Of a DNA stretch of 53,715 nucleotides, positions 8,999-44,981 are shown piece after piece; the stretch's first letter is position 1, and the number at the start of each line of letters is the position of its first letter. The stretch lies in the NCBI GenBank assembly GCA_937883755.1, contig CAKZYA010000042.1, positions 1 through 53,715 on the forward strand. Direction: 5' to 3'. The translations under genes and the position numbers were made by a program. The notes under the pieces are model-generated. The model did not search any database. It saw only the letters and a program-made list of their open reading frames with translations, and was not told the origin of the DNA. The stretch is from an uncultured Flammeovirgaceae bacterium (GTDB lineage: Bacteria; Bacteroidota; Bacteroidia; Cytophagales; Cyclobacteriaceae).

Positions 8999-9002
8999 AA
9001 GT

Positions 9003-10526: not shown

Positions 10527-10556
10527 TAAAGTGTTGAATGGTTAATTATGAAATAA

Positions 10557-11954: not shown

Positions 11955-11989
11955 TAAGGTGTTGAATGGTTAATTATGAAATGGTTGAT

Positions 11990-12349
11990 TTAGTCTAGTA
12001 TCTCCAGGGTGCGCATCGCCACAAAGCCCTCACCTTCCAATTGGTAGAGGTAGCGTCCGGCTTCTACCGGGCTACCGTCGGTCCTTTTGGCCTCCCAGCC
12101 AATGCAGTGCCATCCGGCCTCCATTTCTCCCTGGTACAGAATACCGACCTGCTTTCGGTCTGCGCTTAACAGCCGCAAGGTGATCCGTTCGGATTTAAGA
12201 ATATAAAAACGGATGGTGGTATTGCCCCGAAAGGGATTGGGCTCATTTTGCTCTAGTACTAAGGAGAGCGGCTTATCAACGGCGTTTGGGCTGAGCGGCT
12301 GAGGAACAGCCGTAGCGAGTGGCTGGGGTAGGTCATCGTTCTTTTTCAT
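11990..12349 (-). CDS. Small FlgD-Ig/T9SS-like beta-sandwich protein
   Basis: 119 residues without an obvious signal peptide. LEQNEPNPFRGNTTIRFYI, then VEAGRYLYQLEGEGFVAMRTLEI, matches the pattern of FlgD-like Ig or type IX sorting-type C-terminal domains (NxPNPF, then xGxYxxxL). It is the first gene of the minus-strand block and lies 36 bp before the S74 paralogue. It may be a detached C-terminal domain or a cytosolic partner. The start is the first ATG (MKKNDDLP); translation from further upstream is possible. Confidence 0.55.
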   Translation of the reverse strand: MKKNDDLPQPLATAVPQPLSPNAVDKPLSLVLEQNEPNPFRGNTTIRFYILKSERITLRLLSADRKQVGILYQGEMEAGWHCIGWEAKRTDGSPVEAGRYLYQLEGEGFVAMRTLEILD

Positions 12350-12716
12350 AGCGTGTAGTAGGTGGCTGGTTAGCAGTTCGGGCTAACGATCCAAGTAGAT
12401 ACAAAGCTAGTGAGATGCTTCCTGGCAGGCCTTGCCGTACGCGACTTTGTACACGCTAAAAACGACAATACCACGCTGAAAGCGACATTGAGCCATACTA
12501 AATGCGACAAAGGGAGTTTTTAAGTGGCAGAATTTTAGGGACAGGTGGCAGTCAAAAGGTGGCAGGGAGCGGGAGCATAAGGATGGGTAGTATGGGGAAA
12601 ACATAGATATAGAACAATCGCATTATATCATGATACCTTTTAGTGAAGGTTTTACTTAACTCATCTTCCATATTTTGCCACCTTGGGCCTTCTAACTGCT
12701 TCTCGTAACCTGTTTC
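12350..12716. other. Intergenic region, presumed promoter of the surface block
   Basis: 367 bp between the small FlgD-like gene and the hybrid regulator, both on the minus strand. I see no gene in it. It should hold the terminator of the regulator and the promoter of the surface-protein block, but I cannot pick out either with confidence. Confidence 0.35.
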
Positions 12717-16829: not shown

Positions 16830-16957
16830 TGCTTGTACGATTTGAGTTTACCCGTATGGTATTATCTGCAAGGACAGTCGGGTCTCTTACCACCTAGTAG
16901 CATCCTTGGCAACGATAGTACAGTAAAGGTACGGCATAATCGTAGGTAAAAAAATAA

Positions 16958-17323
16958 TTAGAGTGCCTTCAACTTATTACCGTTTCCGAACGCGATTTGG
17001 CGGCTCAAAGCCCAATTTTGGAAAGCTTAAGAGGTAGGGCAGTATTTGCAGACAAAGCGTTTTGCAACGCTTCGCTAGAAGCTCATCTGCCAGAACAGGA
17101 TAGTGAATTACTCACTCCAGTCAAATATTGGAAAGGGTAATCAATAGAAGACAAACAGCGGCATAGGGCAGCCGACGACCTGTAGTCAAAAGCAGTTTCT
17201 AGTATCAGACAGCCCATTGAATCCCTATTCAATTGGATCTTTCAGCATACCGGCCTTCAAAGAGCGGGTAAAGTCCGCGCTACCAAAGGTTTATTAGTAA
17301 ATGTATTCGGCAAATATTTATAA
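16958..17323 (+). pseudogene. DDE transposase C-terminal remnant
   Basis: One frame reads ITVSERDLAA, GRAVFADKAFC and LLTPVKYWKG, then two in-frame stops and SIRQPIESLFNWIFQHTGLQ, ending VFGKYL. This is the C-terminal half of a DDE transposase of the IS4/IS982 kind, with the Asp-Lys (ADKAF) and Glu (PIESLFNW) elements of the catalytic core visible. The internal stops (about 17138 and 17189) show it is dead. I see nothing else in the rest of 16830-17582. Confidence 0.7.
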
Positions 17324-17582
17324 TATTATCTATTATTTGATAATATAATTATAATAAATTAGCCTAAAGATTATATTATATAGTATTAAGACCCAACTCT
17401 GAGCCAATGGTAATTATAAGAACCCCTGGCTGACTAGATTTCCACTATTCACCTGAAATCAAATCTAGTATCCAAATATTATGCTCTGTGCTTTATACTC
17501 CTATTTTACCTTTTTGTCGCTACAGGCGGGGCCTCCCTCACTAGATATTTTCGCCAACAGTAAAGTATATCGGCTATACCCA

Positions 17583-18602
17583 TTATTTCTGAACCTCTTT
17601 ACTTGTAAAGTCCGTAAAGGTCTTTCCATCATAACGATGCACCCCACCTCCAGATCCAAACCAAATGCTTCCATCGTTCGCTTCCAATAGACACAAAAAA
17701 TCCATTATTCTTCCTGACTTAATTTCGGTTACCGTGGGCGTTTTATCGTATAAGGTGTTTGCATCATAACGGGATAATGCCCAGACATTTGAATTTCCTG
17801 CACCAGTGGTCCAGATGTTTCCTTTTTTATCTTCGATGATAGCATAAGCATCCCTCTGCGATACGTGTGTAAAAGTGCTGCCATCATAACGCCAAAGACC
17901 ATTAACGTCACCGAACCAAATGTGTCCTTTTTTATCTTCGATGATTGACCACACGTTGTTAAACGCCTTGCCATCGTTGTTTTTTAACACGGTAAATGTT
18001 TTTCCATCATAAACGAACATATCTTCGCCGTGTGCACCAAACCAAAGCCTGCCGGTTTTGTCTTCAAGGAGTAATCGAATATGGTTACTGGGAAATCCAT
18101 CTTTTGTGGTAAAATTTCGAAAAGATTTCCCATCGTAACGGCTTGCTCCGAACCAAATATTACCGGCGCTGTCTTCATAAATATCAAGTGCCATATTACG
18201 GGCAAGCCCATCCTTGGTGGTAAAATGTTGAAAGCTTATCTCCCCGGCTGGTAAGTGATAAACCCCTGAATCTTTGGAAGCGAACCAAAGATTTCCTTTT
18301 CGATCTTCCAGAACATCCCAGAAGCTGGAGAAGCGGGGCGAACTTATTTTACTGGTTAGATTGGTAAACGATGTTCCATCGTATCGAAACACGCCTAAGT
18401 AAGAAGCAATCAAAATGTCTCCGTTCCTGGCTTGCTTTACATTCCGAACCATACTCACAGGCACCTTTTCCGACTCTAAAAGTTGAGACTCGGAGTAAAG
18501 TCCTTTACTGACATTATCTTGTGGTACGCTTGTTTTATCCTGTCCACAGGAGGTGTGAAAAACAGAAAGTAAAAACAGCGCAAATACGTGAAAATATTTC
18601 AT
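17583..18602 (-). CDS. Lipoprotein with two-component-type propeller repeats
   Basis: 339 residues. The N-terminus is a lipoprotein signal (LFLLSVFHTSC, Cys19 lipidated). The body is a chain of about 40-residue propeller units with the pattern IIEDKKGHIWFGxxxGLWRYDG and YDGKSFRNFTTKDG. These are like the sensor part of hybrid kinases but have no kinase or DNA-binding domain. It is probably a periplasmic seven-bladed propeller anchored to a membrane. Stand-alone proteins of this kind may act as ligand-binding or signalling partners; the ligand is unknown. It has no obvious operon partner. Confidence 0.8.
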   Translation of the reverse strand: MKYFHVFALFLLSVFHTSCGQDKTSVPQDNVSKGLYSESQLLESEKVPVSMVRNVKQARNGDILIASYLGVFRYDGTSFTNLTSKISSPRFSSFWDVLEDRKGNLWFASKDSGVYHLPAGEISFQHFTTKDGLARNMALDIYEDSAGNIWFGASRYDGKSFRNFTTKDGFPSNHIRLLLEDKTGRLWFGAHGEDMFVYDGKTFTVLKNNDGKAFNNVWSIIEDKKGHIWFGDVNGLWRYDGSTFTHVSQRDAYAIIEDKKGNIWTTGAGNSNVWALSRYDANTLYDKTPTVTEIKSGRIMDFLCLLEANDGSIWFGSGGGVHRYDGKTFTDFTSKEVQK

Positions 18603-18757
18603 GAATAGTCAGCCGGTTTATTTCTACAAACCTATAGCTAAAGGGTATTGATCCCCAAAAAAATAGTGTAAAATGAATTGTAAAAAATGTAAAATCTACC
18701 GCGCGACGTCCGCTGTAACCTATGCCGTAACGATAGATTTTCCGTTAAACTCGCTTT

Positions 18758-18796
18758 CTTAGAGTAAGTCACTTACCTCTATGCTACGAATACCCC
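18758..18796 (-). repeat. 39-bp Tn3-like terminal inverted repeat (copy A)
   Basis: Read on the minus strand it starts GGGGTATTCGTAGCATAGAG and ends CTCTAAG. A 38-39-bp repeat with GGGG at the outside and TAAG at the inside is the hallmark of Tn3-family ends. Close copies lie at 48073-48111 and 52978-53016. The outer end faces right and cuts straight into the RTX gene that starts at 18798. Confidence 0.7.
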
Positions 18797-18797
18797 A

Positions 18798-19760
18798 AAC
18801 TGGATAGTCCTTGATACGGTCACCGGTGAAACGGGATGGGCATCCGGTGAAGAACGATCCTTTAGCTTTAATAACACGCAAGAATATTCAAGTTACCGTC
18901 TTGATGTAACGGCCAATAATGGCGATACCAAAAACTTGGCAATCGGTGAGATTGATTTGATTGAAGCTCAGCTCGGCAGCAGTACTTTGGTGATTGATGA
19001 TGATATTACTTTGAGCGATGTGGACGGAACGCATTTAGACGGTGCCGAAGTTCGATTATCCGGTGTTCTGGATGGCGCTGATGAGATCTTGTCGGTGACC
19101 ACAGTGGCAGGGATCAATGCCAGTTATGCGGCCGATGGGGCCGATATGGTCATGAGCTTAACCGGCAATGCCACCCTGACTGACTACGAACAAGTATTAG
19201 AAAGTCTCACCTATAACAACACCGCTACCTCCATCACGGCAGGACAGCGATCCTTGCAAATCTCCATCACCGATGAGACAGGGCAAACAAGTGAGGTGGT
19301 TAGTACAGACATCAATGTTTTGAACCCTGACGCTGTCTATGGGACAGCCACCAGTGAAACTTTACAAGGCGATAGCAATAATAATTTGCTATATGGTGAA
19401 GAGGGTGACGACATACTTTACGGTGATGATGGGTTGGATGTCCTATATGGCGGCACCGGTCAGGATACTTTTGTATTTGAACAAAGCTCTGCTTTTAACG
19501 ATGTTGATATCATTCATGATTTTGATAAATCAGAAAGTGATGCCATTGATATTAGTGATTTACTAGGTGCTTATGATCCACTGAATGATGCGATTGCTGA
19601 TTTTATATCTATCACTCAAAATGGCTCTAACAGCCTTTTGGCTATAGATCAGGATGGTACCGGCACGACTCATGCCATGCAAGATGTTGTACAAATCAAC
19701 AATACAGCTAATCTGAATATAAACGATATGATCAGTGATGGTGAATTGATTATCGCTTAA
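18798..19760 (+). pseudogene. RTX-type calcium-binding protein, 5'-truncated, type I secretion C-terminus
   Basis: The frame is open from the edge of the Tn3-like repeat, with no start codon of its own. The first 55 residues (NWIVLDTV to YRLDVTANNGDTKNLAIGEI) look like the end of a discoidin or other carbohydrate-binding beta-sandwich. Then come Ig-like repeats (DGTHLDGAEVRLSG) and RTX nonapeptides (LQGDSNNNLLYGEEGDDILY, GDDGLDVLYGGTGQDTFVF). The end, NLNINDMISDGELII, matches type I secretion C-terminal domains. Such proteins are usual in Proteobacteria and odd in a T9SS-type bacterium. I infer a transferred fragment truncated by a transposon end. An internal TTG or GTG start is possible but unsupported. 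Confidence 0.75.
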
Positions 19761-33258: not shown

Positions 33259-34197
33259 TTAAGTCGGTACAACTGCCGGTTGTTCTTCTACCTGGTCCAA
33301 GATATAATCTACGGCCTTCTGTGCTCCGGCAGCTGCTTCTACGATCAGCTTTTTGTCATTGCGTAGCCTTCCCAGCCAGGATTGCAGATAGGCAACGCTA
33401 TTGTCCAGTAGCTCCTTGCGCCCGTAGCCGTAGTGGTGCATCAGAAAGCAGCTACCAAGCTCGGCAATCAATTCTTCTTTAGCGTAACGCTCACTGCGGT
33501 TGTTGACCGCTTCGGTAATACCAATCCTCGCTAATCGGTTTTGGTGGCCCGTGCTATGGGAGAGTTCGTGATAGAGCGTATCTACGTAGGCCGAGGTGCT
33601 GTGAAAGTGATGAATACTAGGCATATAGATCGTATCCTGTGGGGGTGAATAGCAGGCACGGTTCCCGCCACTCACGATGGTTAATCCGGTTAGCGATTGT
33701 ACGGGGAGCATAGCCTGAGCAAGTTCATCGATAGATAAATCCTGGGTGGGTTCCGGCATCTCAGGCACCGTATAGTCAATACCTTCGGTATCCTCTAGAT
33801 TGAATACCCGGTAGTAGCGCAGCAGCGGAACGATCTTGCTGCCTTGGGGTGGGGTTTGTTGCTGCGTAAGATTTTTCCAGCTTTTAGCAGTCTCATCCGG
33901 ATTGCCGGCCACATAATAGCGCATCTGCCAGAAGACCACGATCTGACTTTTGGCTCCCTTCTTAATATGCCCTCCCAGTTGCTGGGCTTGCTTATAGGTC
34001 AGGTAGTCGGGGGTAGCATATTCGTTCATTCCCAACAGTAGCAGATTAATTCCTCGGTAAGGCTTTTTGGTCAGAAAATTACGTGGGGTGCCCAGACTGC
34101 GCCAGGGTCGCTTCCAGGGAATGATGCCCTGTTCTAGTTGTCTGATAATGTGATCGGTGACGATCTGATACACATCAGAAGAAGTTTTTTTGGTGCA
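33259..34197 (-). CDS. ArdC-like antirestriction protein (ssDNA-binding, zincin domain)
   Basis: 312 residues from MCTKKTSSDVYQIVTDHIIR; a start 5 codons upstream is possible. The N-terminal ArdC domain shows the typical GIIPWKRPWR, TKKPYRGINLLLLG and GGHIKKGAKSQIVVFWQ. The C-terminal zincin-like metallopeptidase domain has the His-rich motif LYHELSHSTGH and the downstream Glu in KEELIAELGSCFL. In plasmids, ArdC protects incoming single-stranded DNA from restriction. Its presence marks conjugative or mobilisable ancestry. It converges on the Tn3-like end at 33175-33214. Confidence 0.9.
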   Translation of the reverse strand, partial: CTKKTSSDVYQIVTDHIIRQLEQGIIPWKRPWRSLGTPRNFLTKKPYRGINLLLLGMNEYATPDYLTYKQAQQLGGHIKKGAKSQIVVFWQMRYYVAGNPDETAKSWKNLTQQQTPPQGSKIVPLLRYYRVFNLEDTEGIDYTVPEMPEPTQDLSIDELAQAMLPVQSLTGLTIVSGGNRACYSPPQDTIYMPSIHHFHSTSAYVDTLYHELSHSTGHQNRLARIGITEAVNNRSERYAKEELIAELGSCFLMHHYGYGRKELLDNSVAYLQSWLGRLRNDKKLIVEAAAGAQKAVDYILDQVEEQPAVVPT

Positions 34198-34620
34198 CAT
34201 GGCAGTAAACAATTAAAATAATGCCCTGACCAACCGCGATCAGGTTCTGCTCTGTTTCCCACTAAACTACTTGCTTAAGTCAAGAGCGGACGGCTATTTA
34301 CGGAGCGAGGAAATGTGGGCAAGCTAACTGGCCGGACGGTTCACGTACTCTTGACTTTTGCGCAGTAGGCTTAGTAATTTTGCTAGAACCTGGCGCGGTG
34401 GGAATGAGAATAGGTAAATGGGCGGGTTATTAATCAGCGACTCGGCTATAAATAAGAAAAAATCCCTTTCATTAACGGGGTGGGTATTTTAAGAATCGAT
34501 TTTGCTTTTATCTTATGGAAAGAGAGTTAAATGTTAATTAGACATAAGACAAGTATAGGGGTATACAATCCACTTTTTCTGGAAAGTCTGATTGGTCAAA
34601 CCTTGCTGCATTTCCTCTCG

Positions 34621-35530: not shown

Positions 35531-36298
35531 TTATGAGGAGGTATACAATCCCATAAGTTGATTTACATTACCTCGGTAGGTATCACCAATTGGAAAGACT
35601 ATGCTCATATCTTGTAATTTTATAGTATCTCTACCCATTGACGTAATCTCACTAATGGCGACAATATATGATTTATGAATTCTTACGAATTGTTCCTTGG
35701 GTAAAAACTTTTCTATTTTATGAAATGCCATGTAGAACCTTTCATCTCGCCCGTTTTTTAAAGTAACTATGACTGAATTCTTACTACCTGAGATATATAA
35801 TATTTCATTTAGATTGATTACCACTTTTTCTCGACGTCGCTTTAAGATTAAAGGTTGTCTACTCAAAGAGCCTATTAAATTAGTATCCAGAGTAGTTTGG
35901 GATTTTATCTTCTCAAGAGTTGCTAAGAATTTTCGATATCCAAAAGGCTTGCATAAGAATCCTCTAGTGTACTTAGAGGTTTCTAGTGCTGGCAAAGCAT
36001 ATTTTGGATGTGCCGTGGTTAGCACAACAGCTGGACTACCGTACTTCATATCATTCTCAATAATACTTAGAAAATCCATCCCGTTAAGACCTGGCATATC
36101 TACGTCAAGAAACAGTAGATCAATTTGACAATTAGACTCAGAAAGGAAAGAAATAGCTGAAATAGGATCAACAAATGATTTAACTAATAATGTTTCATTG
36201 CACAGTTGTATATAATTCGTTAATACATCAATAGCAGCAACATTATCGTCAATAACTAAGCTTTTCAATTGATGGTTTGAATACTTCTCAAGAGTCAT
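35531..36298 (-). CDS. LytTR-family response regulator, downstream of the GG peptide gene
   Basis: 255 residues. The receiver domain shows LVIDDN, the phospho-acceptor Asp in LLFLDVDMPGLNGMDF, Thr in AVVLTTAHPKYAL and Lys in FLCKPFGYRKFL. The LytTR DNA-binding domain follows (LNEILYISGSKNSVIVTLKN, EQFVRIHKSYIVAISEI). LytTR regulators commonly control peptide-signalling and bacteriocin genes. It follows the double-glycine peptide gene by 60 bp on the same strand, separated only by a long hairpin, and is divergent from the kinase gene. It and the second LytTR protein (39969-40679) are the candidate outputs of the kinase. Confidence 0.92.
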   Translation of the reverse strand: MTLEKYSNHQLKSLVIDDNVAAIDVLTNYIQLCNETLLVKSFVDPISAISFLSESNCQIDLLFLDVDMPGLNGMDFLSIIENDMKYGSPAVVLTTAHPKYALPALETSKYTRGFLCKPFGYRKFLATLEKIKSQTTLDTNLIGSLSRQPLILKRRREKVVINLNEILYISGSKNSVIVTLKNGRDERFYMAFHKIEKFLPKEQFVRIHKSYIVAISEITSMGRDTIKLQDMSIVFPIGDTYRGNVNQLMGLYTSS

Positions 36299-36313
36299 AG
36301 TGATCTACAAGAG

Positions 36314-36349
36314 ACCCAAACTGAGAAGAATTTTCTTCCCAGTTTGGGT
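36314..36349 (-). promoter_or_regulatory. Long intercistronic hairpin between peptide and regulator genes
   Basis: ACCCAAACTG (36314-36323) pairs with CAGTTTGGGT (36340-36349), and inside it GAAGAA pairs with TTCTTC, with one A/C mismatch and a 2-base loop. On the coding (minus) strand no T-run follows, so it is less a terminator than an mRNA-stabilising or attenuating stem. Such a stem would raise peptide mRNA above regulator mRNA. Confidence 0.7.
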
Positions 36350-36357
36350 ACGAAAAA

Positions 36358-36498
36358 CTATCTTGACCTCTTGGGTCTCGCATTGATGTTACTCCGTGGG
36401 GGTCTTGGTGAGGAACCTCCTAGAATAGCTTTTTGCTGTTCGGCATCCAGTGGAAGCAGTTTGCCTTTGCTCTCAGGTTTCGAATTTAGCTTTTTCAT
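36358..36498 (-). CDS. Double-glycine leader peptide precursor with Pro/Arg-rich core
   Basis: 46 residues. The leader is MKKLNSKPES, KGKLLPLDAE, QQKAILGG (residues 1-28). It has the amphipathic pattern before GlyGly (Leu-4 to Leu-12 region, then AILGG) that C39 peptidase domains recognise. The predicted core is SSPRPPRSNINARPKRSR: 18 residues, five Arg and one Lys, four Pro, no acidic residue, no Cys. No modifying enzyme is encoded nearby, so an unmodified linear peptide is likely. A C39 ABC exporter and HlyD adaptor are encoded at 40679-44187. TATTTTTG at 36538-36531 fits a Bacteroidota -7 element about 33 bp before the ATG. The PRPPR motif recalls insect proline-rich antimicrobial peptides, but a pheromone role is equally possible. 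Confidence 0.82.
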   Translation of the reverse strand: MKKLNSKPESKGKLLPLDAEQQKAILGGSSPRPPRSNINARPKRSR

Positions 36499-36530
36499 AA
36501 TAAATACAGTTAGAGATATATAGATTTATT

Positions 36531-36538
36531 CAAAAATA
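36531..36538 (-). promoter_or_regulatory. Probable -7 promoter element of the GG peptide gene
   Basis: On the minus strand TATTTTTG matches the Bacteroidota consensus TAnnTTTG and lies 33 bp before the peptide start. I see no clear -33 TTG at the usual distance, as might be expected for an activator-dependent promoter. Confidence 0.45.
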
Positions 36539-36705
36539 TATATTCTGCTTAGAAATCCTTTGGTCGTTATCATATATTTCACCAACGGCAATTATTAAGT
36601 GCCAACTACCATTTTTGGTCATGAACGGCACGAATCAAAGCACCAACTGCTAAACTTCAAGCTGAAAATGAACTTTGTTTAAAATAGATAAAGCTATATT
36701 AGTAG

Positions 36706-36713
36706 TATGTTTG
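36706..36713 (+). promoter_or_regulatory. Probable -7 promoter element of the kinase-exporter operon
   Basis: TATGTTTG matches TAnnTTTG and lies 41 bp before the kinase ATG. A TTTG at 36674-36677 is somewhat too far away (28 bp) for a normal -33 element. With the divergent peptide promoter it shares a 255-bp control region that the LytTR regulators could bind. Confidence 0.45.
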
Positions 36714-36753
36714 TAGTGTTTTGAGATAGACTCATACCTAGCTTCACACTGTT

Positions 36754-37836
36754 ATGAAAAACTTTCTAGCCTTTAAGAAAGAGGAAATTCAAGTTCTAAG
36801 TGTCCTAATCTTCCTTTATTGGCTATCTTTTATTATATCCGCACTTCATTTTGGCTTTCCACTGATACACACCCTATGGACACAAACACCCTATGTCCTT
36901 TTAGATATAGTTGCCTGTTTTATTGTATATCGTTGGATATGTCCCGATGCGCATAAAAACATTGGATTACTCGTTTTAAAGCAACTAGGGCTATTCATTA
37001 TTTATTTTGGATGTTATAGGGGATTAAATAATATTATTCCAGAGTACAATGATGGCAACCCTCAGATTGTAATATATTCACTAGAAGATGATGCAATAGC
37101 TGCTTTTATCGTTCTTTTAACGACGATTGTTCCAGCCTATGGGTTGTATTACTATAAATATGGACTGTACCGTGCTGAGAAGGCAAATGAGAAAAAAGTG
37201 CAGTTTGCGATGTTAAATGAACAGCTGGCTAAACGAGAACTTCAGTACTACAAAGGAGAGTTTAACTCTCATCTCACTTTTAATATATTAACATATTTAC
37301 ATTCTAAGGCAATTAAGCTTCCTGATTTAGCTGAACCTATTCTTCTACTGACTGAGATTTTACGGTATAATACGGCTGTAGAATCAGATAAGAAAGTTTC
37401 ACTTAATACAGAAATAGAGTACCTCTCGAACTTCATGTTCCTTAACCAGCTCATTCACCCTCATCACTATATTAAATTAGAAATAGCTGGTCGTACTGAA
37501 AATATATGGGTTTATCCACGCATAATTATGGGATTTGTAGAGAATGCGATAAAACATGGAAACGCCAGTGACCCTAATTTTCCAATAAAGGTAGAGCTTG
37601 TTGCGAATGAATCTGAATTACAAATTCAAGTAACCAATAAAAAGAAGGATATTCCGCTTAATAACACGACCCAAAAAGGTCTCCTTATTACTAAAACCAT
37701 GCTTGATAAGCTCTATGGTGAGTATCACCACTTGCTTATTGAAGACGGAATCGACACTTTTAAAGTCAATTTGGAAATTAAAATAAAGAATGAAACACCA
37801 GCCTTTACGTACAGCGGACATGAAATTATCTCTTGA
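36754..37836 (+). CDS. LytS-type sensor histidine kinase, four membrane helices
   Basis: 360 residues. Four membrane helices (about residues 13-33, 46-62, 70-90 and 113-135) form a compact sensor without a large periplasmic domain, typical of peptide-pheromone receptors in this family. The His_kinase domain has His173 in FNSHLTFNILTYL, where most relatives read NPHFLFN. The ATP-binding domain follows, with N-box IIMGFVENAIKHG and a weak G-box (TQKGLLITKTMLDKLYG). It is divergent from the GG peptide and overlaps the next gene by 17 bp. It should phosphorylate one or both LytTR regulators. The altered H-box deserves attention. Confidence 0.88.
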   Translation: MKNFLAFKKEEIQVLSVLIFLYWLSFIISALHFGFPLIHTLWTQTPYVLLDIVACFIVYRWICPDAHKNIGLLVLKQLGLFIIYFGCYRGLNNIIPEYNDGNPQIVIYSLEDDAIAAFIVLLTTIVPAYGLYYYKYGLYRAEKANEKKVQFAMLNEQLAKRELQYYKGEFNSHLTFNILTYLHSKAIKLPDLAEPILLLTEILRYNTAVESDKKVSLNTEIEYLSNFMFLNQLIHPHHYIKLEIAGRTENIWVYPRIIMGFVENAIKHGNASDPNFPIKVELVANESELQIQVTNKKKDIPLNNTTQKGLLITKTMLDKLYGEYHHLLIEDGIDTFKVNLEIKIKNETPAFTYSGHEIIS

Positions 37837-39961
37837 AAGAATTCATAAACGTGTAAAGCAGGGCATAGCTCTTATCATAATAACAATAGGAATTTGTCAA
37901 ATTGCTTTTGGGCAAGTTCCGCTTCCCTTATTACCGAAGAATTCCTCAGATACCATACATGGTATCCAGATCGATGACCCTTTTTCACCCTTTGAAGATC
38001 CTGCAAATCTAGAAGCTAAAAAGTGGATTGAGCAGAAAAACTTAGAAGCCAAAGCGGCACTTAATGGTCAGCCTATTCATACTCTATTAGTTGATACAAT
38101 TTCTGCGTTATCGGCTTCAACACCAATACGAGCTACTGTTCCACTGAATAATAATGGGGTCATCTATACGCAATTAGATATCGCGGAGGGTAACGAAACG
38201 AAATTAGTTAAATACAACACGCTTGCTGAACCATATGAAGTTTTACTTACTAATGAATTGTTAACGATTAATGGTTCGGTTTACGAGATATTTGACTACA
38301 ACCCTTCCCCTGATAACCGTTATATAGCCCTTCAACTATACCCTAAAGGGCTTGACGATATGATTATTCGGATTTATGATAGTAAGACAGGTAGTTTTAC
38401 TGAAGATATTATTGACGCAAGCACATCCTATTACCCATTTTGGCTACCTGATAGTAAATCATTCTTCTACACTCAACTATGCTCCCCTATGAAGTTTGAT
38501 TCTGTCCAAGTTAAACGGCACATAATTGGACAATCGCAAAATACGGATCAATTGGTACTTGACCGACAATCATCAAACATACTCACCTACGGTGATGGTG
38601 ATTTTCCAGTAATACAAATGCTGCCCGATGGAAAGCGAGTAGTATGTTCAATGGCCTATGGAATTTCTCAGTATGTTGACCATTATATTGCACCTTTAGA
38701 CGAGATTTTAGGAGAACAGTCTAATTCTTGGCAGCGAATAACTTCTTCCGATCAACAGATTATTACTGCTGATTTTACGCAAAATGATGCATATTTATTG
38801 CGGGCCGAACCTGACTCAACAACATCAATTGTATACTTTAACATTCAAGAACTGGAAGATACAACAGTGCTAATTAACGAAAAAGAGGGGTTTATTGCAG
38901 AAATGATGATTGAAGAAGATGTTCTGTATTATGAAAAGTCATATCAAGGTTCTAGTCAATTAATTCGAGTAAATCTCATTGATAAATCAACGTCAACTCT
39001 TCAACTCCCCTTTCAAGGGGATCTTGTGCTAAATACAGAAAGTCCCGTTCGAGTGAATGGTCAAGGACTATTCTTTGGCCTATCAAGTTGGAATCAGGGA
39101 TATGGAATTTACTATGCTTCTTCGGAAGGTGATACTATTATAAAAACAGATATTAGACCTGCTGGGAAATACGAAAATCCTGATAATCTTGTCGTAGAAC
39201 AAGTACTAGTACGATCTCACGATTCAACAGAAGTACCATTAACACTTATTTATAGAGAGGGGGTAAAAGGAAGTGATGTAGCTCCTGTGATATTAGAGGC
39301 GTATGGTGCATACGGAACGTCGCTAGAACCATACCTACAAGTAGAGTCTCTGCCTTGGCTGTATAATGGCGGTATCTTAGCGAAAGCTCATGTGCGGGGT
39401 GGAGGTGAAAATGGCCCTCAATGGCACACTGCTGGCAGAAAGAAAACAAAATCAAATACCTGGAAAGACTTAATTGCGTGTGCTCAATTTCTGATCGAAG
39501 AAAATTATACAAAACCTGAGAAGTTAGGTGTCATAGGGGGAAGTGCTGGGGGAATTGCAGTTGGGATGGCTTTGAATAAAGCACCAAAACTTTTCGGTGC
39601 TGCTGTGCTAAGTTATCCAATGGTCAATCCAGTACGCTTGGAGTCTGAAGAGCAATTTGATGAGTTTGGTGATCCAAAAGACTCTACAGAATTTAATTAT
39701 CTTTACCAAATGGATCCCTATTTACATATATCTTCTAAGAATAATTATCCACCTATCTTAGTTATTGCAGGAGTCACCGATCCCAGAATTCCTTTATGGT
39801 CTACCGCTAAATACGTAGCCCGAATACAGCAAGTAACTGATCAGCCCGTTTTTCTCAGGGTCTACAATACAGGTCATGGGACACAGGGGACAGATAATGT
39901 TTTAGAATTAGCTGATCAGTTCTCCTTCTTTATGTGGAAATTGAATGCTTGGTACGATTGA
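37820..39961 (+). CDS. Exported prolyl oligopeptidase (S9A)
   Basis: 713 residues from the ATG at 37820. A signal sequence (VKQGIALIIITIGICQIAFG) directs it to the periplasm. The N-terminal part carries the PxDP(F/L)xPFEDPxNxxAKKWIEQ pattern and the seven-bladed propeller. The alpha/beta-hydrolase domain has Ser575 in GVIGGSAGGIAVG, Asp654 in GVTDPRIPLW and His686 in YNTGHGTQG. Prolyl oligopeptidases cut after Pro in peptides shorter than about 30 residues, because the propeller excludes larger substrates. The 18-residue Pro-rich core peptide of this locus meets both limits, so it is the obvious candidate substrate, for maturation, turnover or self-protection. It is translationally coupled to the kinase gene (17-bp overlap). 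Confidence 0.92.
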   Translation: MKLSLERIHKRVKQGIALIIITIGICQIAFGQVPLPLLPKNSSDTIHGIQIDDPFSPFEDPANLEAKKWIEQKNLEAKAALNGQPIHTLLVDTISALSASTPIRATVPLNNNGVIYTQLDIAEGNETKLVKYNTLAEPYEVLLTNELLTINGSVYEIFDYNPSPDNRYIALQLYPKGLDDMIIRIYDSKTGSFTEDIIDASTSYYPFWLPDSKSFFYTQLCSPMKFDSVQVKRHIIGQSQNTDQLVLDRQSSNILTYGDGDFPVIQMLPDGKRVVCSMAYGISQYVDHYIAPLDEILGEQSNSWQRITSSDQQIITADFTQNDAYLLRAEPDSTTSIVYFNIQELEDTTVLINEKEGFIAEMMIEEDVLYYEKSYQGSSQLIRVNLIDKSTSTLQLPFQGDLVLNTESPVRVNGQGLFFGLSSWNQGYGIYYASSEGDTIIKTDIRPAGKYENPDNLVVEQVLVRSHDSTEVPLTLIYREGVKGSDVAPVILEAYGAYGTSLEPYLQVESLPWLYNGGILAKAHVRGGGENGPQWHTAGRKKTKSNTWKDLIACAQFLIEENYTKPEKLGVIGGSAGGIAVGMALNKAPKLFGAAVLSYPMVNPVRLESEEQFDEFGDPKDSTEFNYLYQMDPYLHISSKNNYPPILVIAGVTDPRIPLWSTAKYVARIQQVTDQPVFLRVYNTGHGTQGTDNVLELADQFSFFMWKLNAWYD

Positions 39962-39968
39962 GGTTACT

Positions 39969-40679
39969 ATGGAAAAAATAAAACTTATTGCGGTTGATGA
40001 TAATATAGGGGCATTAGAAACAGTTCATAACTACCTTGAAAAAATATCGTGGATTGAACTGATAGGCACTTACACATCCCCAATTAAGGCACTTGATATT
40101 TTACTTAAGGAAGCCGTAGATATTGCTTTGGTCGATGTTCAGATGGATGAATTGTCAGGACTTGAATTTATAAACATAGCCAAAAAACAGCATACAACTA
40201 ATAATCCTGCATTTATCATTATCTCATCGTATGATAAGTATGCAATTAATGGTTATGAACTTGATATTACCGACTATCTACTAAAACCATTTAGGTTTGA
40301 TCGCTTTTTAATAGCCTTGGAGAAAGGACGGTCAGTAAGATTGGGTCAATATCAAAGTGAATCAAAATATATCTTTGTTCCTAATGGAAGTAAAAACAGT
40401 AAGATCTATCCTTCACATATTCAGTATGTACAATCTTGCGGTCATTTTGTAAAGATAGTAAGCCTTGAAAGCGATTCTATGATTATCAACCAAACTATAC
40501 AATATCTAAATAGTCTATTACGACCTTATCGCTTTATACAGATACATAAACAATACCTGGTCAATATCCAACATATTGAGGAAATTAGTAATAATGCAAT
40601 CTCAATTAAGGATGTTAAAGATAAGCTTCCTATTGGACGTAAGTACAAACCTGAAGTATTACGAATCTTGCTGTCTTGA
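39969..40679 (+). CDS. LytTR-family response regulator, in the exporter operon
   Basis: 236 residues from MEKIKLIAVDDNIGALETVH. Receiver: VDDN, acceptor Asp in DIALVDVQMDELSGLEF, Lys in LLKPFRFDRFL. LytTR domain: YIFVPNGSKNSKIYPSHIQY, RFIQIHKQYLVNIQHIEEI. It starts 7 bp after the oligopeptidase stop and its stop overlaps the exporter start (TGATG). It is a paralogue of the regulator at 35531-36298 but clearly diverged, which suggests separate promoters or an antagonistic pair. Confidence 0.92.
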   Translation: MEKIKLIAVDDNIGALETVHNYLEKISWIELIGTYTSPIKALDILLKEAVDIALVDVQMDELSGLEFINIAKKQHTTNNPAFIIISSYDKYAINGYELDITDYLLKPFRFDRFLIALEKGRSVRLGQYQSESKYIFVPNGSKNSKIYPSHIQYVQSCGHFVKIVSLESDSMIINQTIQYLNSLLRPYRFIQIHKQYLVNIQHIEEISNNAISIKDVKDKLPIGRKYKPEVLRILLS

Positions 40680-42880
40680 TGAAACCGTTTCCCTTCTACA
40701 GACAGCTCGACTTTGCCGATTGTGGCCCTACCTGCTTGCGCATGATTACTAGTTATTATGGCAAGCATTACTCGTTAGAGGAGATCATGTCGAAAACTCA
40801 TTTGGGAAGACAAGGGATTTCATTACTCAATCTTTCAACGGCAACGGAAAATCTTGGATTTCGCTCTGAAGCGGTTATTGCTGGATTGCATACTTTACAG
40901 CAAGATGTAACACTACCTTGTATTGCTCATTGGCGTGATCGTCATTATGTGGTTATCTACCGGATAACAAGTAAATATATTTACGTATCTGATCCAGCCA
41001 CCGGAAAGCTTCGGTATACCTATCAAGAATTTCTCTCTGGTTGGCAAAACGATGATCTGTCAATAGACGAACCTAGTGGTGTCCTGCTGGTACTAGAGCC
41101 TTCTTCTGAATTTTATGAGCAGACTACATTGGGCTCTACTAAATCGTCTAATGAGTGGTCTTTCCTACTCCCATTTTTTCGGCCATATCATCGCTATTTA
41201 GCACAGCTCTTACTAAGTGTGATAGCCGTAAGTCTGATTCAGCTTGTTTTCCCTTTTCTAGCTCAATCGCTAGTGGATGAAGGTATCCGTAATCAAAATC
41301 TGCATTTTGTCTATATCATTCTTATTGGTCAACTGGTATTATTCATTTCTCAAACTGTTGGGGAGGTGATACGAAGCTACCTATTATTATATGTTGGCAA
41401 CCGGGTTAGTATTTCACTCTTATCTAGCTTTCTACAAAAAATGATGCAACTACCCCAGTCGTTTTTTGAGCAAAGAAATTTAGGGGATTTATTTCAGCGT
41501 ATTAGTGATAACCAAAGAATTGAAGATTTTTTAACGGCTCAATCGCTTAATGTACTCTTTTCTGTATTCAGTATTTCAATATTCAGTATTGTACTGGCTT
41601 ACTATAACTCTTTGATCTTCTTGATATTTATCATAGGAGCTGCGCTCTACATGGGATGGATTTTGTTGCTTGCCAGAAAAAGAAAGCAACTGGAATATAA
41701 ACGCTTCGAGACTTTTTCTCAGCATCTCGGACAATTGCATGATTTGATTTACGGGATGCCAGAAATACGGTTGAATGGGTCACAGCGTCGTCGGCGTTGG
41801 CGTTGGGAATCAGTACGTATTAAGCAACATCAAGTTGATACGGAAACCCTCTCAGTAGATCAGCTACAAGAAAGAGGAGGTATGTTTATTCATGAATTAA
41901 AAAACATCGGCATTACCTTTTTAGCTGCTGTATTGGTTATTCAAGGGGAAATGACGCTAGGAATGTTAATCGCTGTGCAGTATATCATCGGGCAAATGAA
42001 TTCACCGTTACTGAATCTGATAGATTTTTTCCGTTCTGCTCAAGACGCCCAATTGAGTATTGCCCGGCTTCGTGAGGTACTTCAAAAATCAGGTGAAGAT
42101 AGCGAGGAGGCTCAAATTCAGGACAAACTACCTCCAGGTGATTTACGAATAGAAAATCTCACTTTCCATTACGAAGGGCCACATTCGCCCGCAGTTCTCA
42201 ATGATATATCCGTAACAATTCCACAAGGAAAAGTTACCGCTATTGTAGGTGCCAGTGGTAGCGGCAAGACGACGCTGCTCAAATTACTACTGAAGTATTA
42301 TTCCCCTATTCAAGGATACATTACTATTGGCTCCCAGAAGCTTGATAAGCTACCCTCAGCTAACTGGCTTTCTCAATGTGGAGTTGTCATGCAGGAAGGT
42401 TTTATTTTTGACGATACCATTCTTGCTAATATTACGGAATCGGATAGCCAACACAAATTAGATAAAGAAAGACTCGCTCATGCGGTTCGTATTGCTTATT
42501 TAGAATCATTTATAGATTCTCTTCCTAAAGGATTTTCTACACAAATTGGAAAAAACGGTATGGGGCTTTCAGGGGGACAACGGCAGCGGATGCTTATTGC
42601 TCGGGCGATATATAAGAACCCTACCTACCTATTCTTTGATGAGGCTACGAGCGCCCTAGATGCTGCTAGTGAGCGCTATATTGTCAATAATCTAGAAAAC
42701 TTCTACCAGGACCGAACTGTCATCATCATCGCCCACCGTCTTAGTACCGTTAAACATGCTGATCAAATATTGGTGATGGATCAAGGGAAGATAGTAGAAC
42801 AAGGTACACATCACGAGCTGACGTACCAGAAAGGAGTATATTACACGCTAGTGAAAAATCAACTAGAACTAGGGGAATGA
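40679..42880 (+). CDS. Peptidase C39-containing ABC exporter
   Basis: 733 residues. The N-terminal C39 peptidase has Cys15 in DFADCGPTCLRMI, His89 in HWRDRHYVV and Asp105 in VSDPATGK, a full triad that cuts after GlyGly in leader peptides. Six membrane helices (about 160-440) and an ATPase follow, with Walker A GASGSGKTTLLKL, signature LSGGQRQRMLIARA, Walker B YLFFDEATSALD and the switch His in IIIAHRLST. It should process and export the peptide encoded at 36358-36498. The start ATG overlaps the previous stop by one base; the TTG just before it is less likely. The sequence is complete. Confidence 0.95.
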   Translation: MKPFPFYRQLDFADCGPTCLRMITSYYGKHYSLEEIMSKTHLGRQGISLLNLSTATENLGFRSEAVIAGLHTLQQDVTLPCIAHWRDRHYVVIYRITSKYIYVSDPATGKLRYTYQEFLSGWQNDDLSIDEPSGVLLVLEPSSEFYEQTTLGSTKSSNEWSFLLPFFRPYHRYLAQLLLSVIAVSLIQLVFPFLAQSLVDEGIRNQNLHFVYIILIGQLVLFISQTVGEVIRSYLLLYVGNRVSISLLSSFLQKMMQLPQSFFEQRNLGDLFQRISDNQRIEDFLTAQSLNVLFSVFSISIFSIVLAYYNSLIFLIFIIGAALYMGWILLLARKRKQLEYKRFETFSQHLGQLHDLIYGMPEIRLNGSQRRRRWRWESVRIKQHQVDTETLSVDQLQERGGMFIHELKNIGITFLAAVLVIQGEMTLGMLIAVQYIIGQMNSPLLNLIDFFRSAQDAQLSIARLREVLQKSGEDSEEAQIQDKLPPGDLRIENLTFHYEGPHSPAVLNDISVTIPQGKVTAIVGASGSGKTTLLKLLLKYYSPIQGYITIGSQKLDKLPSANWLSQCGVVMQEGFIFDDTILANITESDSQHKLDKERLAHAVRIAYLESFIDSLPKGFSTQIGKNGMGLSGGQRQRMLIARAIYKNPTYLFFDEATSALDAASERYIVNNLENFYQDRTVIIIAHRLSTVKHADQILVMDQGKIVEQGTHHELTYQKGVYYTLVKNQLELGE

Positions 42881-44187
42881 ACAAACTGCCTAAAGCCATT
42901 GAAGAGCTTAATGAGCCTTCGGAATATCTGAAGGAAGTCTTAGATACCCCTCCCAGTTGGGCTGTTCGGTGGGGAGAAGTCTTTGTACTGTTTATCGTTG
43001 TGCTTCTCTTACTGCTCGGCTATCTAATCCGCTACCCCGACCGTATTCCGGCTCAAGTGGTAATTACAACGGTTCAGCCTCCGTTGCCAGTGAATGCCAG
43101 GGTCAATGGCCCATTATCCCAACTCTTGGTTCAAGATCAGGATATGGTAACGAAAGGACAGGTGCTTGCAGTAGTACAAAATACGGCGATATACTCCGAT
43201 ATCGTTCAGCTTAAACAAGAACTTCAGCGGTTTGATGTATCAATCAATAGTGATACACTTAGCTTTGCTATTTCCTACCGACTCGGCAGTTTACAGGAAA
43301 AGTACGCCCTATTACAGAAAGCTTACCAGGCATACCGCCTTTTTCGAGAACTGACCCCAGCTTACAGGCAACAGCAAGCTATACTTGGGCAACTGGCTCG
43401 TTATCAAGGGTTACTTATACAAAAACAAGAACAACAACACCTCTTAGAGCGAAAAGTACAACTGGCCGAAAAAGACTATCGCCGTAATCAAGAGCTACAC
43501 GAAACTCAGACCATTGCCGATAATGCTTTAGAAGCAAGTGAAGGGCAGTGGTTAGCAGCACAAGAAGCTTATGAAATTTTACTTAGTGAACGTTCTCAGC
43601 TTTCGGTACAGATTGCAGAACTAAAAAGAGAACAGTCTCAGTATGGCACCCAGCATACCCAGGAAGGAGTGCAATTACGGAGCACTTTGCTATCGTCCTT
43701 AGATCAATTACGGGCCGCCATCCGGCAATGGGAGGAAAATTACTTACTAATTGCTCCCCGCTCAGGTCAGGTAGCCTTTTCGGATTTTTGGACAGAACAA
43801 CAGGAAGTGGAAGCAGGTCAAACGGTTATGCGTATCGTCCCTCCGATAGAGGATGCTGCCGGAAACATCATTGGACAACTTCGTGTACCAACCCAGAATT
43901 CCGGTAAGCTCAAGAAAGGACAGCAAGTGGAAGTATATCTGGAAAATTACCCTCACGTCGAATATGGTACCTTGTCTGCCACAGTTAAAACAATCTCTTC
44001 ACTTCCTAAGCAGGGGCAGTATCTTTTAACGATTACGTTTGACAATGGACTAGTAACCCAGTACAACCAAGAAATTCCTTTTCAGCAACAACTACAAGGG
44101 AGGGCTGAAGTCATTACGGAAGACTTGCGATTGCTGGAACGATTTATTTATCAATTACGCAGTGTCAATGCAACATTTCCTAAGTGA
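42877..44187 (+). CDS. HlyD-family secretion adaptor
   Basis: 436 residues. One membrane helix (EVFVLFIVVLLLLLGYLI), a lipoyl half-motif (PVNARVNGPLSQLLVQDQDM), a long coiled coil (about residues 110-270, rich in Glu, Gln and Leu), the second lipoyl half (LIAPRSGQVAFSDFW) and a beta-barrel region (GQLRVPTQNSGKLKKGQQVE). It bridges the ABC exporter to an outer-membrane channel. No TolC-like gene is in the operon, so a housekeeping channel is probably shared. Its ATG overlaps the exporter stop by 4 bp (ATGA), showing translational coupling. It is the last gene of the operon. Confidence 0.93.
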   Translation: MNKLPKAIEELNEPSEYLKEVLDTPPSWAVRWGEVFVLFIVVLLLLLGYLIRYPDRIPAQVVITTVQPPLPVNARVNGPLSQLLVQDQDMVTKGQVLAVVQNTAIYSDIVQLKQELQRFDVSINSDTLSFAISYRLGSLQEKYALLQKAYQAYRLFRELTPAYRQQQAILGQLARYQGLLIQKQEQQHLLERKVQLAEKDYRRNQELHETQTIADNALEASEGQWLAAQEAYEILLSERSQLSVQIAELKREQSQYGTQHTQEGVQLRSTLLSSLDQLRAAIRQWEENYLLIAPRSGQVAFSDFWTEQQEVEAGQTVMRIVPPIEDAAGNIIGQLRVPTQNSGKLKKGQQVEVYLENYPHVEYGTLSATVKTISSLPKQGQYLLTITFDNGLVTQYNQEIPFQQQLQGRAEVITEDLRLLERFIYQLRSVNATFPK

Positions 44188-44331
44188 TTTTCCTGTAAAA
44201 TACACTAAGTAACACACTATACACTAGGAATATCCTCTGCTTGGTAAAGTTTGTCATTCCCTAAAATCAGTCTACAGGTTTAGACTAAGATTTCTTATGT
44301 TAAGTAAAAGACAATAACTCTTCCCTACGAC

Positions 44332-44721
44332 CTACCACAATGTATTTATAGAATAGTTTTTAAACTGAGGATCGGTCGTAATGATAATTAAATTCTCTGT
44401 TTGCGCCTGGCTGATAATAAGCCGATCAAACGGATCGCGATGATTATCCACATAGGCTAATTCTTCTAGCGTTTTGAGGTGTTCAACGGTGAGGTTTAGA
44501 AAATTAAATTCACTGACTTCAGTTTGTTTAATAATATCATCCAGTGTAGGCTTGAAATTAAGTTTACCAACCCCGCGTTTAATGGCAATTTCCCAAAGGC
44601 TGACAATGGTTATGGTAATCTCATTATCTTCATGGTCAATCGCATTTCGTGCCTGTTTTGACAGCCTTGGATCATCCTCTAGCGACCAGATTACCGCTTG
44701 GGTATCAAGCAAATACTTCAT
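44332..44721 (-). CDS. vapC: VapC-type PIN-domain toxin
   Basis: 129 residues. PIN ribonuclease features: MKYLLDTQAVIWSLEDDP (first Asp), SLWEIAIKRGVGKL (Glu), HRDPFDRLIISQA (Asp) and IIITTDPQFKNY (last Asp). VapC toxins cut tRNA or rRNA in the cytoplasm until neutralised. Its start overlaps the antitoxin stop by 4 bp. The length is standard. It converges on the exporter operon and is probably unrelated to it. Confidence 0.9.
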   Translation of the reverse strand: MKYLLDTQAVIWSLEDDPRLSKQARNAIDHEDNEITITIVSLWEIAIKRGVGKLNFKPTLDDIIKQTEVSEFNFLNLTVEHLKTLEELAYVDNHRDPFDRLIISQAQTENLIIITTDPQFKNYSINTLW

Positions 44722-44981
44722 GAATGGGGTTGCTCGTCGGGCATATCGTCTCTGAAATCGTCCAATGGCTCATTAAAGTCATCAGCCATATATATTAGGG
44801 AACCCTTCATACTGCCAATAAACCGCTTTTTCTTTGGTTTTACGGCACTTTCATCCACTTCTAGGACAGCATCTAGCATATCATGAAGCTGTTGCAGCTC
44901 ACTTTCATCCATCGAAGGAAGCTTCTGCATCAGATACGGAAGCTTCTGTTTAATATCCTGACGTAGTTCTAATTCAGTCAT
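44718..44981 (-). CDS. vapB: DUF2281-type VapB antitoxin
   Basis: 87 residues. A helical N-terminus (LEELxx-like: MDESELQQLHDMLDAVLEVD) is followed by the conserved end KKKRFIGSMKGSLIYMADDF and NEPLDDF, typical of DUF2281 antitoxins that partner PIN toxins. The stop overlaps the toxin start by 4 bp, giving the usual antitoxin-first order. Confidence 0.85.
   Translation of the reverse strand: MTELELRQDIKQKLPYLMQKLPSMDESELQQLHDMLDAVLEVDESAVKPKKKRFIGSMKGSLIYMADDFNEPLDDFRDDMPDEQPHS

Follow-up and report, generated by a model that had tools for sequence, protein, structure and literature searches.

We describe a gene cluster for a small, probably secreted peptide in a DNA stretch of 53,715 nucleotides, here called the window, which is the entire contig CAKZYA010000042.1 (G000:C42) of a 7.6-Mb genome from an uncultured Flammeovirgaceae bacterium. 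The cluster comprises a gene for a 46-aa precursor with a double-glycine (GG) leader, two LytTR response regulators, a histidine kinase, an S9A oligopeptidase, an ATP-binding cassette (ABC) exporter with a C39 peptidase domain and an HlyD-type adaptor. The most economical reading, to which we give a probability of about 0.6, is that the cluster forms an autoinducing peptide-pheromone circuit on mobile DNA. The gene set, the conservation of the precursor, the repeats in front of it, the kinship of the loci and the mobile context of the relatives are read from sequence, and from these we infer secretion, sensing, binding of the repeats, the role of the peptidase and the output.

Gene set of the cluster

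Domains were assigned to the open reading frames (ORFs) of the window by Pfam search, and the features are collected in Table 1. An earlier, sequence-only reading of the window had proposed a self-contained peptide secretion and sensing circuit, and in the ORF list and the Pfam results all genes that it named are found where it placed them and with the domains it gave, including the minus-strand ORF of 46 codons whose leader ends in AILGG and which lies between the regulator RR1 and the divergent operon. Its LytS label holds insofar as the kinase belongs to the PF06580 class; Pfam found no further domain in that protein. Counted from the first start codon, the kinase and peptidase genes overlap by 47 bp and the following genes by 17, 4 and 4 bp. 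If the next Met is counted as the start, the kinase/peptidase overlap is 17 bp and the RR2/C39 overlap 1 bp, which makes the "1-17 bp" of the sequence-only reading a fair description.

The precursor gene is conserved

The peptide matches no Pfam family. Its predicted core of 18 aa, SSPRPPRSNINARPKRSR, contains 4 Pro and has a net charge of +6. A small ORF of GG type is on its own no better than chance and proves little, as a loose GG filter is passed by 27 ORFs of the window. A kinase profile search of 295 family genomes, in which at most 6 candidates were scored in each genome, returned six loci in four genomes below 1e-60 (Table 1). Conservation of a GG-leader small ORF in related loci was a test set beforehand, and such an ORF is present at five of these six close-kinase loci, the near-identical G002:C122 copy counted; at the sixth, L085, no precursor ORF was seen.

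The relatives of the precursor lie at positions 7614-7769 of L035, 10156-10290 of L086 and 8423-8557 of L087. The window peptide was compared with all small ORFs of each locus by Smith-Waterman alignment, with 2000 shuffles as control. The precursor ranked first of 96 small ORFs in L035 (score 79, next 40) and first of 173 in L086 (74, next 34), and in neither case did any of the 2000 shuffles equal it. In L087 it also ranked first, of 172, but weakly (33 versus 29, equalled by 30 of 2000 shuffles). The cores at the window, L035, L086 and L087 are SSPRPPRSNINARPKRSR, DPIKPPASKVLHRPRR, PKPPRVRMMVRPNQKPK and KEFPKWLEKLVNRSEH, respectively. Of these four distinct cores, three are positively charged (+4 to +6) and rich in Pro (4-5 Pro in 16-18 residues), and PP and RP stand at corresponding positions in the cores of the window, L035 and L086, though not in that of L087. 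Precursor profiles, which were built from loci already found and so report absence elsewhere rather than an independent rediscovery, scored below 1e-19 in 4 of the 295 family genomes, the same four that have the kinase below 1e-60; a weak match (0.007) in G490 lies within a 384-codon frame.

Conservation together with the conserved regulator sites described below lifts the precursor ORF above chance, and on this sequence evidence we take the tiny gene to be real. The 27 ORFs passing the loose filter might suggest that the frame arose by chance and that another product leaves through the exporter, but this is very improbable given that a small ORF preceded by such sites is kept at five of the six loci.

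LytTR-type repeats in front of the precursor

Direct repeats of LytTR type, with the consensus GTTSRTG and a period of about 21 bp, precede the precursor gene and point at it. TAnnTTTG, which we take to be the -7 box consensus, has a likeness downstream of the repeats in the window (Table 1) and in L086, there at 49 bp; none was found in the other three repeat regions. Three strict sites occur in each of five regions, namely before the precursor in the window, L035, L086 and L087 and before the RR1-like start in L085. In all five, strict site pairs lie solely on the strand of the downstream gene. The last repeat starts 77-91 bp before the precursor ATG. Among 5000 dinucleotide shuffles of each region, a strict pair arose in 0, 0, 1, 1 and 0 (window, L035, L086, L087 and L085). 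A weight matrix, derived from these same sites, placed its top pair in the precursor region in the 54-kb window (score 26.2 versus 17.1 for the next best), in 85 kb of the G516 locus (27.5 versus 19.1) and in 82 kb of the G556 locus (25.2 versus 15.5, the next best lying within the same region). The spacing matches that of LytTR sites, which are given as 9-bp repeats with 12-bp spacers (PMC2766830).

The repeats appear to tie the LytTR regulators to the peptide gene and are the strongest evidence for autoinduction, with binding as a prediction. They were absent from the sequence-only reading and add to its case; a GG ORF kept in five of six kinase loci and LytTR-type sites before the precursor together favour the self-contained circuit that it proposed.

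Table 1. Features of the window (first ten rows) and of related loci.
Feature	Position	Strand	Notes
LytTR response regulator RR1	35531..36298	-	Pfam Response_reg 5.3e-13, LytTR 1.3e-14; same strand as the peptide gene and downstream of it
Peptide precursor, 46 aa	36358..36498	-	Leader MKKLNSKPESKGKLLPLDAEQQKAILGG, core SSPRPPRSNINARPKRSR
TAnnTTTG-like -7 box	36531..36538	-	TATTTTTG; last repeat starts 48 bp upstream
LytTR-type direct repeats	36578..36647	-	Point at precursor; starts 36647 GTTGGTGCT, 36626 GTTCATGAC, 36606 (weak) GTTGGCACT, 36586 GTTGGTGAA
Histidine kinase, PF06580 class	36754..37836	+	Pfam His_kinase; His173 within FNSHLTFN
S9A oligopeptidase	37790..39961	+	Pfam Peptidase_S9 and S9_N; possible start 37820
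LytTR response regulator RR2	39945..40679	+	Pfam Response_reg and LytTR
C39 peptidase-ABC exporter	40676..42880	+	Pfam Peptidase_C39 and ABC
HlyD-type membrane adaptor	42877..44187	+	Pfam HlyD_3
ArdC-like anti-restriction protein (window, adjoins cluster)	33259..34212	-	Pfam ArdcN 2.9e-29, MPTase-PolyVal 6.4e-33
Kinase loci	window, G002:C122 (L034), G002:C449 (L035), G002:C6 (L085), G516 (L086), G556 (L087)		
Putative conjugative element carrying the circuit	L086, L087, L131-L136		Tyrosine integrase, relaxase-like gene, coupling protein, ArdC (G556)
Class I lanthipeptide cluster	L092 (G196:C45:291000-310000) 6812-18803, plus L100 2-3388		

Related loci

The same gene set occurs at four distinct loci, the window, L035, L086 and L087, where the S9A enzymes are 39-44% and the kinases 28-37% identical to those of the window. 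Three gene orders are found among the four: L086 is arranged as the window, and L035 and L087 are rearranged, the precursor and exporter of L087 forming a unit separate from the kinase/S9A genes. An RR1-like gene is present at L034, L035, L086 and L087, and an RR2-like gene at these loci and at L085. A peptidase search of 98 relatives pointed to G000 and G002, the genomes of the first three clusters, and when 395 class genomes were searched with each protein (2 and 5 candidates scored in each genome), no additional circuit of such make came up. Scored with a kinase profile of five rows, the circuits reach 1e-156 or better. Outside them, the best match among the 395 class genomes is at 1.7e-67 (in G196), and among 390 order genomes at 1.5e-53. 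Eleven further order genomes have kinase matches of 1.5e-53 to 5.7e-51. Of the family kinase matches from 1e-44 upward, those in G523, G499, G700 and G708 are kinase-regulator pairs without an S9A gene or a full exporter.

The near-identical copy lies on contig CAKZYJ010000122.1 of a same-genus metagenome-assembled genome, with 99.74% identity over 10,154 bp, and is the sole match among the named genomes. The two copies diverge at window position 44308 (L034 750), 121 bp past the HlyD gene. Either its surroundings differ between the two genomes, or one of the two contigs is misjoined or misbinned.

Predicted export and sensing

Along its full length the exporter can be aligned with the competence-pheromone exporter ComA (8hf4) and with PCAT1 (4ry2). 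Cys16, His90 and Asp106, presumably its catalytic residues, are the same in three cluster exporters. The exporter of L035 is broken, its C39 frame stopping after 109 codons. The broken C39 gene is followed there (9456-11030) by two ORFs, the second of which has no Pfam match. Elsewhere in the genome of the window, two adjacent C39-domain genes (G000:C58:25238-27708) include one exporter 49% identical to that of the window. A scan with a defence library matched only the exporter, mostly its ATPase part. In the leaders of the window, L035 and L087, GG is preceded by Leu(-12) and Ile(-4), and position -8 holds Gln, Gln and Ala, respectively, so that they appear near the ComA leader rule, Leu(-12)-X3-Glu(-8)-Leu(-7) (PMC6363468). 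The kinase retains His173 and the motif ENAIKHG, and its N-terminal half, read by eye, is hydrophobic with an acidic loop.

Compared with signalling systems of Sil, Pln or Com type, the cluster has a GG precursor conserved alongside a C39 exporter (with the register doubtful in L086 and the exporter broken in L035), and a LytTR regulator with direct repeats of 21-bp period before the peptide gene. No kinase of the Gram-positive receptor class was found by Pfam, only PF06580.

The S9A peptidase

Read by eye, the N terminus of the S9A enzyme is signal-like. The catalytic Ser585, Asp664 and His696 of the family are present in all four cluster enzymes. The S1 position that holds Trp in prolyl oligopeptidase (POP) was defined by the sequence RTWIPEYG of 2bkl, in which this Trp presumably stacks on Pro. 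It is occupied by Gln, Gln, His and Gln in the window, L035, L086 and L087, and by Asn in L092. Aligned to the EFDEWGNP motif of 19 rows of oligopeptidase B (OpdB) type, which we take to contain Glu576, the cluster enzymes also lack the OpdB Glu at this position. Glu576 sets a basic P1 in OpdB (PMC3778648). The alignment indicates that the window enzyme is not a typical prolyl oligopeptidase and may have a third kind of S1 pocket beside the POP and OpdB types. The missing Trp speaks against the prolyl-specific enzyme of the sequence-only reading, and proline specificity as an argument for a Pro-rich substrate was given up after the S1 comparison. An AlphaFold model of the peptidase was discarded (mean predicted local distance difference test score, pLDDT, 44.3; 4-row alignment).

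A tree was made of 48 S9A rows, several of them copies or fragments of a single gene from overlapping loci. The cluster enzymes group in one clade (100/100), joined by the G196 enzyme (100/98). Both fall within a 27-row clade (100/100) that stands apart from 21 rows with OpdB- or POP-type motifs. Enzymes of the 27-row clade in L092, L101 and L102 adjoin GG-leader precursors. The GG filter found no precursor near the S9A genes of L037, L038, L039, L041, L042, L043, L048, L099, L103 and L104, one unconvincing frame near L036, and one frame each next to the OpdB-type genes of L045 and L047. A precursor-like ORF lies 2 kb from the S9A gene of L099. Coupling of S9A enzymes to GG-peptide genes thus looks recurrent, not universal. 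The combination of an S9A enzyme with such an operon, for which the sequence-only reading knew no described case, has counterparts in L092, L101 and L102, which also pair enzymes of the clade with GG-leader precursors, and a unique pairing of S9A with LytTR operons was accordingly given up. In a plasmid search the best S9A relative was 28% identical.

One alternative for this step, possible but doubtful, is maturation: the S9A enzyme would trim the peptide released by C39, be it a signal or a bacteriocin, to its active form, much as prolyl oligopeptidases act in class III lanthipeptide clusters. It would accord with the GG-leader precursors beside S9A genes of the same 27-row clade in L092, L101 and L102. 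The S9A gene, however, adjoins the kinase in all four distinct circuits, including L035 with its broken exporter and L087, where precursor and exporter lie elsewhere, and staying with the kinase fits signal handling at the receiver better than maturation.

A lanthipeptide cousin in another family

A LANTHIPEPTIDE cousin was found in G196 (L092), from a different family within the class. The order there is histidine kinase-S9A-histidine kinase-LytTR, after which come genes for a GG precursor that contains Cys, an S41 peptidase, LanC and LanB; C39 and HlyD genes lie further along. A second GG peptide with a Pro-rich, Cys-free core, APPIITGPLHTHTPPTGKI, is divergent from the first kinase, placed as the window precursor is. 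This peptide resembles that of L035 (score 60, equalled by 0 of 2000 shuffles) and only weakly that of the window (score 32, 53 of 2000 shuffles, rank 3 of 149 small ORFs). In NCBIfam, its leader hits the class I lanthipeptide leader NF038153 (1.9e-9), and no GTTSRTG site was found in the 147 bp before the L092 kinase; perhaps the peptide is a modified product and does not serve as a signal. The lanthipeptide-type leader and the weak similarity to the window peptide weaken it as proof of an unmodified pheromone. In L101 (4756-10230) and L102 (3509-10857), the S9A genes adjoin GG-leader precursor-like ORFs and two-part lantibiotic dehydratase genes.

BLAST with the LanB, LanC and S41 proteins of L092 gave no match among the 50 window ORFs of at least 100 aa, nor in L034, L035, L085, L086 and L087. 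The circuit thus shows neither the LanB/LanC proteins nor the core Cys of class I lanthipeptides, its cores being Cys-free.

Mobile context

Tyrosine integrases of one domain type directly adjoin the clusters of L035 (near tRNA-Asp), L086 and L087 (near tRNA-Pro). A type IV secretion system coupling protein lies beside the cluster in L086 and L087, next to a MobB relaxase match in L086 (139.9 bits, below the 200-bit NCBIfam cut-off) and DUF5712 in L087. The G516 and G556 elements share DNA patches over about 35 kb and 25 kb, respectively, and G556 has an ArdC gene further along and, by eye, a large Tra-like gene. In the window an ArdC gene adjoins the cluster, and an integrase of a different type lies 4 kb beyond. 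No integrase among those looked for adjoins L085, where tRNA-Pro and tRNA-Ser genes lie about 6 kb off. No att repeats were found for the G516 and G556 elements, and no repeat of the tRNA-Asp end of L035. On the other side of the window cluster, a PIN-domain protein (44332-44981, minus strand) and an upstream 87-aa ORF with a weak match to DUF2281 are likely a toxin-antitoxin pair.

These neighbours raise the idea, which we consider quite unlikely, that the circuit governs when its host integrative conjugative element is excised or transferred. The integrases beside three clusters, the coupling protein and relaxase-like gene beside L086 and L087, the ArdC genes of G556 and the window, and the Tra-like gene of G556 would suit such a function; against it, no strong LytTR pair lies near integrase, mob or tra genes in the 85 and 82 kb covered, and the att repeat was not found. 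Transfer control concerns the output and trimming by the peptidase concerns one step, so both are compatible with a pheromone circuit, and the odds assigned to the several readings do not sum to one.

Proposed mechanism and its weighing

In the proposed circuit, the precursor would be synthesised with its GG leader, which the C39 domain of the exporter would cut off, and the core of 16-18 residues, mostly rich in Pro and Arg/Lys, would be exported through HlyD and an outer-membrane channel of the host. The PF06580 kinase would sense the core and phosphorylate one or both LytTR regulators, which would bind the tandem 21-bp repeats and raise transcription of the precursor, one of them perhaps lowering it. 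The exported S9A peptidase, mostly co-inherited with the kinase, would edit or clear the peptide at the cell surface, and its action would set the sensitivity of the response or its end.

Several observations weigh against this reading. The system is rare, being present in 4 of 295 family genomes. The L087 core (1 Pro, net +1) differs from the others, and its peptide is only weakly similar to that of the window. In L086 the GG lies two residues out of the Leu(-12) register and is directly followed by Pro, and cleavage there is therefore doubtful. The kinase is of the PF06580 class, which differs from the class of pheromone receptors in Gram-positive bacteria. The repeat-pair searches found no output gene: the weight matrix gave no second strong pair around the window, G516 or G556 copies, and in whole-genome searches strict pairs numbered 1, 7, 4 and 4 in G000, G002, G516 and G556, with 1, 5, 2 and 1 of them at circuit loci. 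The 0, 2, 2 and 3 pairs elsewhere are not above a reversed-pattern control (3, 2, 0 and 2), and a regulon is not claimed from this search. Finally, L085 (1-2540) has the kinase, RR2 and an RR1-like start with LytTR sites, but no S9A gene adjoins its kinase and no precursor or exporter was seen; the contig edge lies within RR1, and genes beyond it may escape detection. L085 is possibly a receiver-only relic, and its gene set and the broken exporter of L035 are as expected of receivers.

The lack of an alternative output gene is also consistent with a self-induced, proline-rich bacteriocin, in which the Pro/Arg peptide would be both weapon and its own inducer and the S9A enzyme a periplasmic immunity factor that destroys it. 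The cationic, Pro-rich character of three of four distinct cores points the same way, and mobile elements often bear bacteriocins. S9 enzymes, moreover, favour peptides below 3 kDa (PMC3778648). We nevertheless hold this reading to be unlikely: L087 retains its S9A gene although its core has one Pro and a net charge of +1, no further immunity gene is present, the S9A gene keeps with the kinase and not with the exporter in L035 and L087, and a search of PDB chains with the final 20 residues of the window peptide gave no match at E values up to 10, a weak test at such length. An antimicrobial action is possible for the three Pro/Arg cores.

A possible but doubtful extension of the pheromone circuit is a mobile peptide language of Bacteroidota, in which a version-specific, mostly Pro/Arg-rich pheromone and its receptor would form a positive loop through tandem LytTR sites, with a dedicated surface S9A enzyme that reads, edits or erases the signal; in another Bacteroidota family the receptor-peptidase module might have been taken over to turn on the making of lanthipeptides.

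Comparison with known systems

Signalling by GG-leader peptides through LytTR regulators is textbook knowledge for Gram-positive bacteria, and such a language is hardly known in the Bacteroidota, a large bacterial group. Among the papers listed in searches of an open-access library, none described a Bacteroidota system of this make; the papers on pinensin and on Pedobacter lusitanus may describe S9A genes. With its 18-residue signal, binding sites and receptor all predicted, the circuit is directly testable with a single synthetic peptide. The specificity of the S9A enzymes is a clear question as well, because their clade is separate from the OpdB and POP types, its S1 pocket is altered and some members adjoin secreted-peptide genes.

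The Bacteroidota class I lanthipeptide clusters (L092, L101 and L102) share with the window the S9A clade and GG leaders, and L092 also PF06580-type kinases, a LytTR regulator, C39 and HlyD genes and a divergent Pro-rich GG peptide; unlike the window, they have their own LanB (two-part in L101 and L102), LanC (in L092) and Cys-bearing cores. Animal proline-rich antimicrobial peptides are short, cationic and Pro/Arg-rich with a PRPPR-like run, and so resemble the window core. The likeness here is one of composition only: those are host-defence peptides that kill bacteria through ribosome binding, and the L087 relative is not Pro-rich. The LanPB prolyl oligopeptidases of class III lanthipeptide clusters likewise place a POP-family enzyme in a secreted-peptide cluster, but the peptide class is another, and no kinase/LytTR circuit is described in the available part of PMC7268733.

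Two Gram-positive systems are also close in design. The plnABCD locus of Lactobacillus plantarum has, as in the window, a GG peptide pheromone, one kinase, two LytTR regulators, a C39 exporter and an accessory protein; unlike the window it has no S9A enzyme, and it drives bacteriocin operons. The streptococcal Sil system (SilCR, SilA-SilB, SilD-SilE) is alike in its autoinducer peptide, kinase, LytTR regulator and ABC exporter system, with a kinase that presumably belongs to another class than that of the window. Its direct repeats, with a 21-bp period of 10-bp repeats and 11-bp spacers, stand before the exporter/peptide unit (PMC2766830). Sil differs in being Gram-positive, in its one regulator and in its known bacteriocin-type output, and the available part of PMC2766830 describes no S9A enzyme. 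The circuit would work like the Sil or Pln systems, but as its kinase is of a different class and its secretion and response are predictions, we do not file it as a member.

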